Shown in pieces: positions 7,801 to 31,396 of a stretch of DNA of 64,000 bases. The first letter of the stretch is position 1. The number at the start of each line of letters is the position of its first letter. The notes beneath the pieces were generated by a model. It saw only the letters and a program-made list of their open reading frames with translations. It did no database searches and was not told where the DNA came from. Source of the DNA: Lachnospiraceae bacterium (GTDB taxonomy: Bacteria; Bacillota; Clostridia; Lachnospirales; Lachnospiraceae); contig AP025576.1 in the NCBI GenBank assembly GCA_022845955.1, positions 1,240,001 to 1,304,000 on the forward strand, in the 5' to 3' direction. Made by a program: the position numbers and the translations under genes.

Positions 7801-7959
7801 TATTTTGTCCGGATGGGTCAGCAAATGGCTCATGCGGCCTTTTTTATTTCTGCGGGCAACTGCGATGTTTGCGTAAAATAGATAAAAAAAGATGCGACTA
7901 TATAACAGGCAGCGCATTTGCCGGGCTGGCTGTAAGGAAATGACAAAACGGAGGAAAGC

Positions 7960-24748: not shown

Positions 24749-24986
24749 GGGTGCAGATAAAAAAGTATGGCGTCCCCCGGGCCTGCTTCCCTGTGCGGCC
24801 AGCTGCCCTGCAAGGTTCCTTCCAGGGGACGCTTTCGTTCGGATAATCACGCAGCGGTACTAAGGCTGCAAGGGACGCAGCCTAAGGACCGGCGTGCTTA
24901 TAACGCCCCTTACAGGAATCCTTGCAGGGCAGCTGGCCGCACAGGGAAGCAGGCCCGGGGGACGCCATACTTTTTTATCTGCACCC
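24749..24986. repeat. Giant palindrome 1 (67-bp perfect arms)
   Basis: The left arm 24749-24815 (GGGTGCAGATAAAAAAGTAT...) is the exact reverse complement of the right arm 24920-24986, 67 of 67 positions. The arms then continue with a one-base bulge (TTCC/GGAA). The 104-bp centre folds again: AGGCTGC/GCAGCCT is flanked by CGGT/ACCG pairings (about 24853-24896). The element contains no gene and fills most of the 411-bp gap between the HEAT gene and the cupin-AraC gene. No target-site duplication is visible at its ends. It could be a MITE-like element or a very large RNA hairpin or terminator. Confidence 0.85.
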
Positions 24987-27331: not shown

Positions 27332-27518
27332 GATCCGGATCCCACATGATACTTTTCAGGAACGGCAGTGTGAAACGGGCAGAAAAGGTCATATAAAGCA
27401 AGTTTTGTATAGAGTGATATAGAGATGTTAGAAATATATAATAGAAACACACAAAACATACAAATTGTACTTTATTAAAAGGGGACTATGTTGTGAAAAT
27501 TACAAGGAGGGAATGAAA

Positions 27519-29210
27519 ATGGCTAAAAAAATGATGGCAATTGTTATGGCTGCCGCGATGTCGGTGACATTGCTGGCAGGCTGTGCGGGGAAAGGAGCGG
27601 ACACGCCGGCGGCGGCGGATAACGCGGGCCGGACCACGGAAAACCAGGGAAGCACGGCAGCAGGCGGGGAGGAAGCATCCGGGGAGGACGGCAGCGGACT
27701 GGTTCCGATCACCTTCAGCAGGGCGCAGGATTCGCTGATGGAAACGGATATTTTTGCAAGAATGGAAGGGGCCAGCTATGAGGATAATCTCTGGACGGAT
27801 TTGATCGCGGAAAGGCTTGGCTATGATGTAAAATATCTGTGGATTGCCTCCAGCGCAGAGCTTCAGACGCAGAAATTCAATGCGGCTATGGCGGCAGGTA
27901 CGATTCCGGATATCGTATGTGTGAATAAGACAGACTTAAAGCAGCTTGTGGAAGCCGGTCTGGTAGTGGATATGAAACCTTATTTTGACGAGTACGCCAG
28001 TGATTTTGTCAAGGAATTGATTGCGGCGGGCGGGGATGCTGCGATTCAGGCATGTACCTATGACGGCGTGCAGTACGGGATTCCCTATGTGGACTGTGAT
28101 ATTGAGACGGCACAGATGCTTTGGCTGCGCCAGGACTGGCTGGACGAGCTGGGGCTGGAGGCACCGGAAACACTGGAGGAACTCAAAAACATCCTGGCAG
28201 CGTTCAAGGAGCATGCCGGCAGCGGCGGATCGGGTCTGGCACTCAGCTCCGATATTTACGGCAACAATTTTGATATGAAGGGCTGGTGCAACGCCTATGG
28301 GGCCTATCCCAAATATTGGATTGATGACGGAAGCGGAAAGCTGGTATACGGCAGTACCACTCCGGAAATGAAGGAGGCGCTGGGAAGCCTTGCGGAGCTT
28401 TTCCAGGAGGGGTTGCTTGATCCGGAATTCTATGTAAACGACAATGACAAGGCAAAGGAAGCGCTTGTCAGCGGAAAATGCGGGGCTATGTACGGCTATC
28501 ATGCAGGTTCCCTGTGGCCGCTGCAGGATGTGGTGGATGCCGATCCGGAAGCGGACTGGCGCCCCTATGCGCTGCCTGTAAAGAATGCGGGCGATACCAT
28601 CAAACCCGGTATCCATATGTGTACGGCAAACTGGTATGCGGTAAGCAAGGACTGTGCCCATCCGGAAGCTTTGGTTGAGATGCTGAACTTATATTGTGAA
28701 AAAGTGCTGGATCCCGAAAAGAATGAGTATGCGGTATATGCCAATCCCGGGGACGGGCTGGAGGGTGTATGGAGGCTTACCCCGGTAACCATCAACAGCC
28801 CTAATAAAAACCAGGTTACGGCAAAGGCGATTGAAGAACCCTTAAAAACCGGCGATCCCGGCGAGCTTACCGGGGAACAGTACAGCATGTGGGAATACAG
28901 CTATAAGGCGCAGAACGGAGATACCCAGCTTTGGGGATGGAACCGTGTATTCGGGGCGGACGGCTCCCAGCAGCTGCTGATGTCCTATCAGAACGACAGC
29001 AATGTGGAATTGGTATATGATCAGTTCTTCGGCGCTCCCGGTGAGATTATGACCACGAAGAAAACCACGCTGGATGATATGCTGGATCAGGTGTTCATAA
29101 AAATCATCGCCGGCCAGGAGCCTCTGGATTCTTTTGATTCCGTGGTGGAACAGTGGAAAACGGCAGGCGGTCAGGAGATGACGGACGAAGTGAACGAATG
29201 GTACTCTTAA
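27519..29210 (+). CDS. Extracellular solute-binding lipoprotein (LplA-like)
   Basis: A 563-residue lipoprotein with lipobox LLAGC (Cys22), a low-complexity linker to about residue 65, then a large binding-protein fold (QTQKFNAAMAAGTIPDIVCV; YGIPYVDCDIETAQMLWLRQ). The start is ATG 27519, 8 bases after AAGGAGG at 27504-27510; ATG 27513 is too close to that site. Its length is typical of the binding proteins of LplB/LplC importers. The two matching permeases follow, but only after the 259-bp palindrome at 29265-29523. The GH78 gene beyond suggests a rhamnose-containing oligosaccharide as ligand. Confidence 0.92.
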   Translation: MAKKMMAIVMAAAMSVTLLAGCAGKGADTPAAADNAGRTTENQGSTAAGGEEASGEDGSGLVPITFSRAQDSLMETDIFARMEGASYEDNLWTDLIAERLGYDVKYLWIASSAELQTQKFNAAMAAGTIPDIVCVNKTDLKQLVEAGLVVDMKPYFDEYASDFVKELIAAGGDAAIQACTYDGVQYGIPYVDCDIETAQMLWLRQDWLDELGLEAPETLEELKNILAAFKEHAGSGGSGLALSSDIYGNNFDMKGWCNAYGAYPKYWIDDGSGKLVYGSTTPEMKEALGSLAELFQEGLLDPEFYVNDNDKAKEALVSGKCGAMYGYHAGSLWPLQDVVDADPEADWRPYALPVKNAGDTIKPGIHMCTANWYAVSKDCAHPEALVEMLNLYCEKVLDPEKNEYAVYANPGDGLEGVWRLTPVTINSPNKNQVTAKAIEEPLKTGDPGELTGEQYSMWEYSYKAQNGDTQLWGWNRVFGADGSQQLLMSYQNDSNVELVYDQFFGAPGEIMTTKKTTLDDMLDQVFIKIIAGQEPLDSFDSVVEQWKTAGGQEMTDEVNEWYS

Positions 29211-29223
29211 ATCTCTTTCTTAC

Positions 29224-29248
29224 GGCCAGCGCGGCAAGTGCGCTGGCC
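29224..29248 (+). terminator. Hairpin after the binding-protein gene
   Basis: GGCCAGCGC and GCGCTGGCC (29224-29232, 29240-29248) form a perfect 9-bp stem 13 bp after the stop codon. No T-run follows, so it may stabilise the 3' end of the mRNA rather than terminate. Confidence 0.5.
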
Positions 29249-29264
29249 TGACTGAATAGTTACA

Positions 29265-29523
29265 AACGCAAACATCGCAGGAGCCAAATGGCCTCCCTCC
29301 CGCTGCCGGCGCGTCGTGTCCGGGATTGAAAAGGATTTTTTTCAGTCAGTCAGACCGTACATTCCGATGAGCCCGAGGGCATCAAGTGTGTCAGGTGAGG
29401 CTGACACACTTGATCGGTCTCCTCTCCATGGTCTGAAATGACTGAAAAAAATTCCTTTTCAATCCCGGACACGACGCGCCGGCAGCGGGAGGGAGGCCAT
29501 TTGGCTCCTGCGATGTTTGCGTT
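29265..29523. repeat. Giant palindrome 2 (about 84-bp arms)
   Basis: The left arm starts AACGCAAACATCGCAGGAGC at 29265, and the right arm ends GCTCCTGCGATGTTTGCGTT at 29523. The reverse complements agree over about 84 positions apart from a single extra A (GGATTTTTTT against GGAATTTTTTT). Pairing then continues with gaps to CAGACC/GGTCTG (29351-29356, 29430-29435). An independent perfect 14-bp hairpin, ATCAAGTGTGTCAG/CTGACACACTTGAT (29381-29414), sits in the centre. No gene is inside. It separates the binding-protein gene from its permeases. A 14-base match to its end, TGCGATGTTTGCGT, occurs at 7861-7874. Confidence 0.88.
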
Positions 29524-29564
29524 ATAAAAAAGAACCATTTTATGTGTGGTGTGGGAGGAACCGT

Positions 29565-30500
29565 ATGGCTTCAGCAAAGAAAAAAGGAAAAAGCAAATAT
29601 ACCGTCGCTGTTTTTAAGAGGGAGCTGCCGCTGCATCTGATGCTGCTTCCGGGACTCATCCTGGTGGCCGTTTTCAGCTATACCCCTATGGCAGGGCTGA
29701 TTATCGCTTTCCAAAAGTTTATTCCGAGCAAGGGGATGTTCGGAGACCAGCAGTGGGTGGGGCTGGGGAACTTCACTTATGTGTTCAGCCTGCCTGGTTT
29801 TGATCAGGCGCTGAAAAATACCATAGTCATCGCTTTCTGGAAAATCCTTCTGGGGCTGGCGGTACCTATCATTTTTGCACTGCTGCTGAATGAAGTGAAT
29901 CGCAGCGGCTTTAAGAGAACCGTGCAGACCATCGTGTATCTGCCTTATTTTTTGTCCTGGGTGGTTTTGGGCGGTATTTTTCTGGATATGCTTTCGCCCA
30001 GCTCCGGTATTGTCAACCAAATACTTACGGCGCTGGGGGGGAAAAGCGTTTTTTTCCTGGGAGACAACCGTTATTTCAAGCCGACCCTGATCGTGACGGA
30101 TATCTGGAAAAATTTCGGATACGGGGCCATTGTTTATCTGGCCGCCATTCTGGGAATAGACACGGACCTGTATGAAGCGGCGCAGATAGACGGAGCCAAC
30201 CGCTGGAAGCAGGTATGGCATGTAACCCTTCCGGGCATGCGGATGATCATCGTGCTGATGATGGTACTCAGTCTGGGAAATGTGCTGAATGCGGGTTTTG
30301 ACCAGATCTTCAATCTTTACAGCAAAGCGGTTTATGAATCCGGGGATATCCTGGATACCTTTGTATACCGCCTGGGCCTTATCGATGCCCAGTACGGGCC
30401 GGCTACGGCGGTGGGGCTGTTTAAGTCGATCATATCAACCATGTTCATTTCGGTTTCCTACTGGCTTGCCTATCGGTTTGCAGATTACCGGATCTTTTAA
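29565..30500 (+). CDS. Sugar ABC transporter permease (LplB type)
   Basis: A 311-residue permease with the LplB-type N-terminus (LMLLPGLILVAVFSYTPMAG) and EAA loop LYEAAQIDGANRWKQVWHVT. The start is ATG 29565 after GTGGGAGG. The frame continues to 29517, which lies inside palindrome 2, and that part is not likely translated. It pairs with the next permease. Confidence 0.93.
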   Translation: MASAKKKGKSKYTVAVFKRELPLHLMLLPGLILVAVFSYTPMAGLIIAFQKFIPSKGMFGDQQWVGLGNFTYVFSLPGFDQALKNTIVIAFWKILLGLAVPIIFALLLNEVNRSGFKRTVQTIVYLPYFLSWVVLGGIFLDMLSPSSGIVNQILTALGGKSVFFLGDNRYFKPTLIVTDIWKNFGYGAIVYLAAILGIDTDLYEAAQIDGANRWKQVWHVTLPGMRMIIVLMMVLSLGNVLNAGFDQIFNLYSKAVYESGDILDTFVYRLGLIDAQYGPATAVGLFKSIISTMFISVSYWLAYRFADYRIF

Positions 30501-30514
30501 GGGAGGGCACAACA

Positions 30515-31396
30515 TTGAAAAAAATGACTAAGGGACGTCTTGTCTTTCAGATAATTAATTATACCGTACTGATCCTTTTGTCGGCTTTGTGTCTGTTTCC
30601 GCTGCTGAATATCCTGGCTATGTCCTTTTCCAGCGCCACGGCAGTGGCGGCGGGTAAGGTTTCCGTCCTGCCGGTGGAATTCAATACCTATGCCTACAGC
30701 TATGTCATAGGAAAAAAGGATTTCTGGAATTCTCTGCTGAAATCGGTGGAGAGGGTAGGGATCGGGGTCCCCTTTTCCATGCTGCTGACGATTCTGGTGG
30801 CTTATCCGTTATCCAAGGAACGGACACAGCTGAGGCTGCGCAGCTTTTATTCCTGGATTTTCTTCTTCACGATGCTTTTTTCCGGCGGCCTCATCCCCGG
30901 TTATCTGTTAATACAGAATCTGCATCTGATGGATACGATCTGGGCGCTGATTCTGCCGATGGCGGTTCCGGTGTACAACATTGTGCTCATGCTGAATTTC
31001 TTCCGCGGCATTCCCCGTGAACTGGAGGAAGCGGCGCTGATAGACGGCGCCAACCAGTTCCAGACCTGCTTCCGGATATATGTGCCCTGTGCCAAGCCGT
31101 CGATTGCCACGCTTACCCTTTTCTGTTTCATTACCCATTGGAACAGCTATTTCGACGGACTGATTTTTTCCAATTTCCCGGAAAGCTATCCGCTTGCCTC
31201 TTTTCTGTATACGGTGGTGGTACAGAGGGATATGAGCCTTTTGAGCATGGAGCAGATACGGGAGCTTTCCCTGGTGGATGACAGGACGATCCGCTGTGCG
31301 CAGATTTTTATTGCGTTGATCCCGATCATGCTGATATACCCTTTTGCCCAGAAATACTTTGTAAAGGGAATGACAGTGGGTTCCGTAAAGGGATGA
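30515..31396 (+). CDS. Sugar ABC transporter permease (LplC type)
   Basis: A 293-residue partner permease with EAA loop LEEAALIDGANQFQTCFRIY and the LplC-like ending FAQKYFVKGMTVGSVKG. The start is TTG 30515, seven bases after AGGGAGGG. The alternative ATG 30524 is 16 bases away. It is followed 28 bp later by the GH78 gene, so uptake and hydrolysis are probably co-expressed. Confidence 0.93.
   Translation: MKKMTKGRLVFQIINYTVLILLSALCLFPLLNILAMSFSSATAVAAGKVSVLPVEFNTYAYSYVIGKKDFWNSLLKSVERVGIGVPFSMLLTILVAYPLSKERTQLRLRSFYSWIFFFTMLFSGGLIPGYLLIQNLHLMDTIWALILPMAVPVYNIVLMLNFFRGIPRELEEAALIDGANQFQTCFRIYVPCAKPSIATLTLFCFITHWNSYFDGLIFSNFPESYPLASFLYTVVVQRDMSLLSMEQIRELSLVDDRTIRCAQIFIALIPIMLIYPFAQKYFVKGMTVGSVKG

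Follow-up and report, generated by a model that had tools for sequence, protein, structure and literature searches.

A giant palindrome in a Lachnospiraceae transporter operon is likely one copy of a dispersed, MITE-like insertion element with concertedly changing arms

A near-perfect palindrome separates the genes of a transport operon in the window, the 64,000-nucleotide stretch analysed here (G000:C1:1240001-1304000, G000 being the window's own genome, a single contig of 7.29 Mb from a gut bacterium). This palindrome belongs to 40 related loci of one dispersed element that has inverted ends and is flanked by 5-bp repeats; we consider it likely that the element is moved in trans by a transposase encoded elsewhere and that its arms are kept matched by polymerase template switching, one arm being recopied from the other. 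The best reading of this group, denoted family A, is a non-autonomous MITE-like insertion element: shared terminal inverted repeats, a target duplication of fixed length and dispersed copies together with empty sites were all found, and there is no internal transposase gene. Ordinary in kind as a non-autonomous insertion element, it is unusual in build, with heads common to several families, arms that change in concert and uptake of host DNA.

The palindrome covers positions 29265-29523, with arms at 29265-29342 and 29446-29523 (78 nt, 99% complementary, 103 nt apart). Repeat search, arm detection and analysis of ends and flanks delimit a 257-bp family-A element on the plus strand at 29266-29522, ending in ACGCAAAC...GTTTGCGT, in which two inverted-repeat arms (29266-29342 and 29446-29522, both plus) enclose a central head, denoted A (29344-29442, plus; model R1 match at G000:C1:1269344-1269442, 100.3 bits). 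Comparison of the flanks identifies the target-site duplication, with no strand assigned, as TACAA at 29261-29265 and TATAA at 29523-29527, matching at four of five positions. The preliminary description had given arms of about 84 bp differing by one base; indeed there is a sole mismatch in the first 78 mirrored positions, at position 72, but the arms are 78 nt, the figure of 84 counting pairs past a point where the mirror register slips by one base. Long as described, they are GC-rich only modestly (56% in the first 84 nt of the arm), while the perfect 14-bp hairpin reported for the centre is present, as read from the sequence, as an apical stem with a 6-nt loop at 29381-29414 (plus). Folded as RNA the palindrome reaches -221.7 kcal/mol (z -28.6), a value equalled by 0 of 200 shuffles. 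No open reading frame of 90 aa or more lies inside 29265-29523, and against Rfam 15 the palindrome gave no match at or above a family's gathering score; MIR8622 stayed below the cut-off on both strands, which we took as a generic effect of long hairpins.

Searching the own genome with the palindrome recovered 72 aligned DNA pieces, the best of which are 70-100% identical, and we tallied these as 40 related family-A loci. Statistics of ends, flanks and arms use 34 of the 40, excluding L067 (arms replaced), L068, L069, L071 and L072 (truncated) and L019 (for which the neighbouring copy L005 was picked instead). ACKCAAAC-like ends with 0-2 mismatches each are present in all 34 complete copies, and the flanking 5-bp direct repeats are identical in 20 and match at four or more positions in 28, against means of 0.8 and 3.1 and maxima of 5 and 10 in 2000 trials with re-paired flanks. 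Fewer than four positions match in fixed register in six copies, two of which (L024 and L063) show a shifted repeat by eye. Across G000, ends with at most one mismatch number 62 forward and 49 reverse, compared with 7 and 6 for the reversed pattern. At site L008, CTGTT flanks the element on both sides in G000, while G001 holds GTGTT once. Furthermore, five versions of 30-82 bp retain nothing but the ends, flanked by duplications that are exact in three and match at 4 of 5 positions in two; those of 30 bp look like internal deletions. Of twelve single ends inspected by eye, nine are apparently one-sided truncations, and in three the second end is altered. A lone family-A end, ACGCAAACATCGC, is also found in the window at 7862-7874 on the minus strand, followed by a few arm bases and then unrelated sequence, representing a truncated copy.

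Four copies (L007, L009, L010 and L016) are 98.8-99.2% identical to L011 and three more 95.8-97.3%, a near-identical subset suggesting that movement is probably recent. Some copies are old, since L263 in G001 and L280 in G000 are the same copy at orthologous places. A variant, GGTAAATTACTAAAGTAATTCGA, is located on the 3' side of the head in the G000 family-A copies L017, L021, L024, L030, L062 and L070, which are 16-18 bp longer. Movement would be accomplished by a DDE-type transposase acting on the ends. No convincing autonomous copy or transposase with family-A ends was detected in 1.264 Mb of the 7.29 Mb, only two chance-like pairs with poor second ends, and none was detected within 4 kb of the 12 single family-A ends. 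Beside the heads L349, L350 and L352, a non-exhaustive reading of open reading frames (with Pfam for L350 and L352) noticed no transposase or reverse transcriptase as a helper gene. Carriage by phages or plasmids was considered and rejected, family A having no match in phage and plasmid records and family B none in phage records; the head-A pattern was found 0 times in viral contigs.

The window holds a second such element, a family-B palindrome at 24749-24986 (plus; 83-nt arms, 92%; no flanking direct repeat in this copy) with head B at 24840-24905 (plus; model R2 match at G000:C1:1264840-1264905, 97.3 bits). Congruent with the preliminary description, the two palindromes have a like architecture and a different sequence, the one at 24749-24986 having another head and other ends. 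Family-B ends read GGGTGCAGATAA, and in fixed register the 9-bp flanking repeats match at eight or more positions in 12 of 22 copies, against a mean of 0.6 and a maximum of 5 in shuffles; two further of the 24 loci, L049 and L054, were excluded as their ends were not found. A census of 1.264 Mb (the window, 4.2-5.0 Mb and 6.1-6.5 Mb) recovered 17 palindromes with at least 90 paired positions, the centres of which show 10 heads A and 7 heads B, and missed four known copies (at 4231873, 4987858, 6241869 and 4580192). In total G000 carries about 70 loci: 40 of family A, 24 of family B and 7 further head-A loci. A different arrangement is seen at G145:C59:125145-125703, where four head-B matches follow one another in tandem every 164 bp, whereas the palindromes of G000 stand singly.

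The arms of family A change together. Compared across the 34 copies, left arms diverge by a mean of 19.5% and right arms by 20.5%, with a mismatch between the two arms of the same copy of 5.0%, and pairwise differences at arm pairs, in which related copies are counted repeatedly, are two-sided in 7933 cases and one-sided in 2942. Mispairs are rare (53 G-T and 40 A-C). Selection on RNA pairing would favour G-U intermediates, which copying of one arm from the other need not, and thus the low within-copy mismatch with few G-T pairs points to arm copying at the DNA level. Fold-back template switching at replication would be the process that mirrors mutations between the arms. Copies of head A on other arms (25 loci, L267 being misaligned) show 44 G-T against 22 A-C, an excess that selection at the RNA level could produce, so that RNA may play a part.

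Host DNA has also been mirrored. The copy L067 shares its head and inner arms with family A but carries another sequence in the outermost ~49 nt on either side. Its left outer arm begins within a gene for an AraC-type regulator (PF12833), the protein of which ends in RHIFQF in G000 and G001 and in RHIFQI in G003, and takes in the last codons and the stop; its right arm is an inverted copy of this left host stretch, with one base different there. Considering that the right arm contains the inverted gene end, it was made from the host DNA on the left. For comparison, at most 8 of the first 16 flank positions are complementary in the 34 A copies. At the L067 locus, the same stop codon is immediately followed by a head-C palindrome in G001, and G003 has a sequence with ACCGGGCATTACG, resembling the start of head A. 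The end of the upstream gene also falls within the left arm in L358 and L352; the comparison of mirrored host DNA with orthologs covers one copy, L067. Template switching could in this manner overrun the element, so that adjoining host DNA would become a new outer arm pair, the outcome seen in L067.

Arm copying would not be needed if compensatory changes, selected for the sake of a structured RNA or DNA hairpin, held the arms paired, and the covariation of the head stems is in line with such selection. We regard this as unlikely for the arms, where three or four Watson-Crick types occur at 20 of 84 arm pairs and intermediates of the G-T or A-C kind are scarce, and where in L067 the whole ~49-nt outer segment has been swapped on both sides at once.

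The head has a history of its own. Head A, about 99 nt with covarying stems, recurs in other genera on unrelated yet self-complementary arms. Its model matches at least 45 times in G000 (one weak, on the opposite strand), at least 10 times in G001 (one weak) and at least 11 times in G003, as well as in at least 12 of 200 genomes (11 of 199 genera) of a family sample and at least 5 of 295 genomes of an order-wide draw, the matching ones all being Lachnospiraceae; the numbers are lower bounds, as not every candidate was scored in the covariance-model searches. A 16-base word of the head is present in at least 110 stretches of public genome contigs. Among the matches listed, titled contigs with a full head belong to Eisenbergiella tayi, Hungatella MAGs and other Lachnospiraceae or 'Clostridiaceae' MAGs, and those in other phyla miss the second half of the head (GGTCTCATCTCCAT-like), which lies outside the search word.

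In an alignment of 31 heads, 95.1% of the structure cells pair, against 72.4% when shuffled and 36-46% when slid, and 211 cells are changed on both sides against 69 when shuffled; the selection of these heads relied on an exact word or regular expression that spans parts of helix 2 and the two loops, and it therefore accounts in part for their constancy in these places. Model-found heads (34 of 37 placed; L267, L353 and L355 misplaced), the model having its own preference for pairs, have GATGAG/CTCATC as helix 2 in 15 cases and AATGAG/CTCATT in 9, with single cases of GATGTG/CACATC, GAAGAG/CTCTTC, GATAAG/CTTATC and AAGAAG/CTTCTT, and the loop before it varies between CATTCC, CATTGC, CATTAC and CGTTCC. 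Helix 2 of head A is conserved, not invariant. The conserved loop bases suggest recognition by a protein, and the head may be kept for a function of its own, either as a central asymmetry through which SbcCD would tolerate the palindrome or as a site where a hairpin-binding protein attaches. That the palindromes survive for want of SbcCD is improbable, an SbcD homologue being present in G000 (157.7 bits).

Heads are also found in new combinations. In the MAG CANSTU, each of the copies L105, L127, L161 and L165 sits on arms of its own, unrelated in sequence yet paired at 98.3-100% over 111-150 aligned positions. Head B occurs in at least 19 of 200 family genomes, where most matches outside G000 score 41-63 bits, and in G001 it is joined to ACTCAAACTTCGC ends with duplications AATAA/AATAA (L221) and CAATC/CAATA (L245), a third such copy (L244) showing TGGTG/TGGCA in a damaged stretch. 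Heads and ends are thus recombined between families. Head C (L364, G001:C20:203505-203864) yields 29 aligned pieces in G001 and 28 in G003, counting both strands, and none in G000 and G012. In the last 14 nt on the left, G content is 45% for head A in other contexts and 50% for head C, against 25% and 22% further out; TGG or TGA directly follows the right arm in 7 of 20 and 6 of 11 cases, respectively, with a right-flank composition close to background. L251, L254, L269, L272 and similar palindromes in G001 and G003 lie a few bases past the stop of a co-oriented gene, as placed by simple ORF calls, with a G-rich spacer between. Copies of head A on other arms have no convincing target duplication in the flanks examined. 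Tentatively, the heads could be the inherited unit of a Lachnospiraceae clan of selfish elements, with at least the head classes A, B and C swapped among arm and end modules, and with arms regrowing by fold-back self-priming on adjacent host DNA, turning gene ends into new palindrome arms.

The operon setting is as the preliminary description had it, between a binding-protein gene and its permeases: an SBP_bac_1 solute-binding protein gene lies upstream (27465-29210, plus; ORF from TTG, true start possibly further in; stop codon 29208-29210), and two BPD_transp_1 permease genes downstream (29565-30500 and 30515-31396, both plus; ORF and Pfam). An ordinary 9-bp hairpin, GGCCAGCGC-GGCAAGT-GCGCTGGCC, read from the sequence at 29224-29248 (plus), precedes the palindrome. 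As a check, the preliminary description had suggested looking for orthologous operons without the element in sister species, and it is absent from those of two congeners, G001 (permease 96% identical) and G004 (permease 87% identical). G001 has a stretch (L085, L099) in common with Eisenbergiella tayi DSM 26961, which makes Eisenbergiella, of the Lachnospiraceae, the probable genus. The same intergenic gap has a small hairpin GTGGGAGG..CCTCCCAC in G001 and CGGGAGGGATAC..GTATCCCTCCCG followed by TTTTT in G004; together with the one at 29224-29248 in G000, these demonstrate that the gap has an ordinary hairpin without the element.

It had been proposed that the palindrome sets the ratio of binding protein to permease. 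Such a regulatory device, in which the transcribed hairpin with its head blocks the polymerase or protects the upstream mRNA, agrees with the location between these genes and with head A being on the operon's strand. One head of another genus (L350) sits in the equivalent gap, a single case that is no rule, and some copies on other arms begin within ~15 nt past the stop codon of a co-oriented gene; the excess of G-T over A-C in the other-arm copies points the same way. Against this, of 38 copies only 22 have the upstream gene on the head's strand, the other 16 having it on the opposite one, counts that rest on simple ORF calls, so that an orientation rule relative to neighbouring genes is weak or absent. 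Moreover, a terminator scan of 29150-29650 allowing loops of 3-8 nt returned 0 sites with a GC-rich stem and T-run, the window element having no terminator-like U-tract, and G-T and A-C mispairs are similarly frequent in family A. No promoter-like or outward promoter site was found in 29150-29650. Absence from the G001 and G004 operons, and the nature of a dispersed repeat with target-site duplications, do not bear out the proposed purpose. The refuting condition named in the preliminary description was, besides equal transcript levels, that every orthologous operon carry the element and that nothing point to movement; the reverse of this second part was observed. We therefore hold the regulatory device to be improbable. 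Returning to the mobile element kept paired by arm copying, the window copy might still influence read-through, and whatever it does to the transport genes would be a by-product of insertion.

Among the public-contig heads listed (L097-L206), 32 of 101 lie no more than 250 nt from the end of their stretch, suggesting that assemblies break at the palindromes. Misassembly of inverted duplications, at places where assemblers struggle, is an explanation we give hardly any credence, as G000 is one contig, particular bases distinguish the two arms of a copy, complete elements are bounded by direct repeats and the same copy (L263, L280) occupies orthologous places in two assemblies. No description of these elements was recognised in the open-licence PMC literature, preprints lying outside this scope, and breaking of draft assemblies at such elements may help explain this. 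According to the available portion of PMC13155455, a 2026 survey of inverted repeats used spacers of at most 8 bp, a limit at which long arms around such a head would not be taken as one repeat.

About 70 giant palindromes or remnants thereof persist in a chromosome with an SbcD homologue, though E. coli cuts long palindromes at replication. The copies are replicates, provided by nature, in which arm-to-arm conversion can be measured, and where heads recur on unrelated arms, what is retained by selection, the head, can be told apart from what is retained by copying, the pairing. They are also a warning that covariation by itself is no proof of a functional RNA.

Several of the bacterial MITE families Correia/NEMIS, RUP, ERIC and YPAL duplicate TA, whereas the target duplications here are 5 and 9 bp. 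As characterised in the consulted part of PMC2229807, these MITEs are likewise short, non-autonomous, dispersed and mostly intergenic, with inverted ends and possible long hairpins; here, in contrast, the arms nearly fill the element and evolve in concert, and a conserved head is common to differing arms and ends. REP/BIME sequences with RAYT are also dispersed palindromes for which movement in trans is proposed (accessible sections of PMC3733652 and PMC2817692), but REPs measure 20-40 bp (PMC3733652, same sections), while the elements here are ~240-350 bp with target duplications, and the window element at 257 bp is no 20-40-bp palindromic unit of the REP/REPIN kind. Template switching that creates or restores hairpins has been described, and quasipalindrome mutation similarly involves one arm recopied from the other with multi-base, two-sided changes (PMC8794818, in the part available); here it is proposed for dispersed mobile elements with arms of 80-150 bp, with capture of host DNA in addition. 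Finally, the portion of PMC4245961 at hand reports on palindromes in E. coli: one of 246 bp, with a central asymmetry of 24 bp, is a substrate for SbcCD cleavage but does no lasting harm to rec+ cells, whereas a perfect one of 460 bp is lethal. The engineered palindromes are thus alike in size and in their asymmetric centre, and G000 too has an SbcD homologue, but those described here are natural and occupy ~70 loci in one chromosome.
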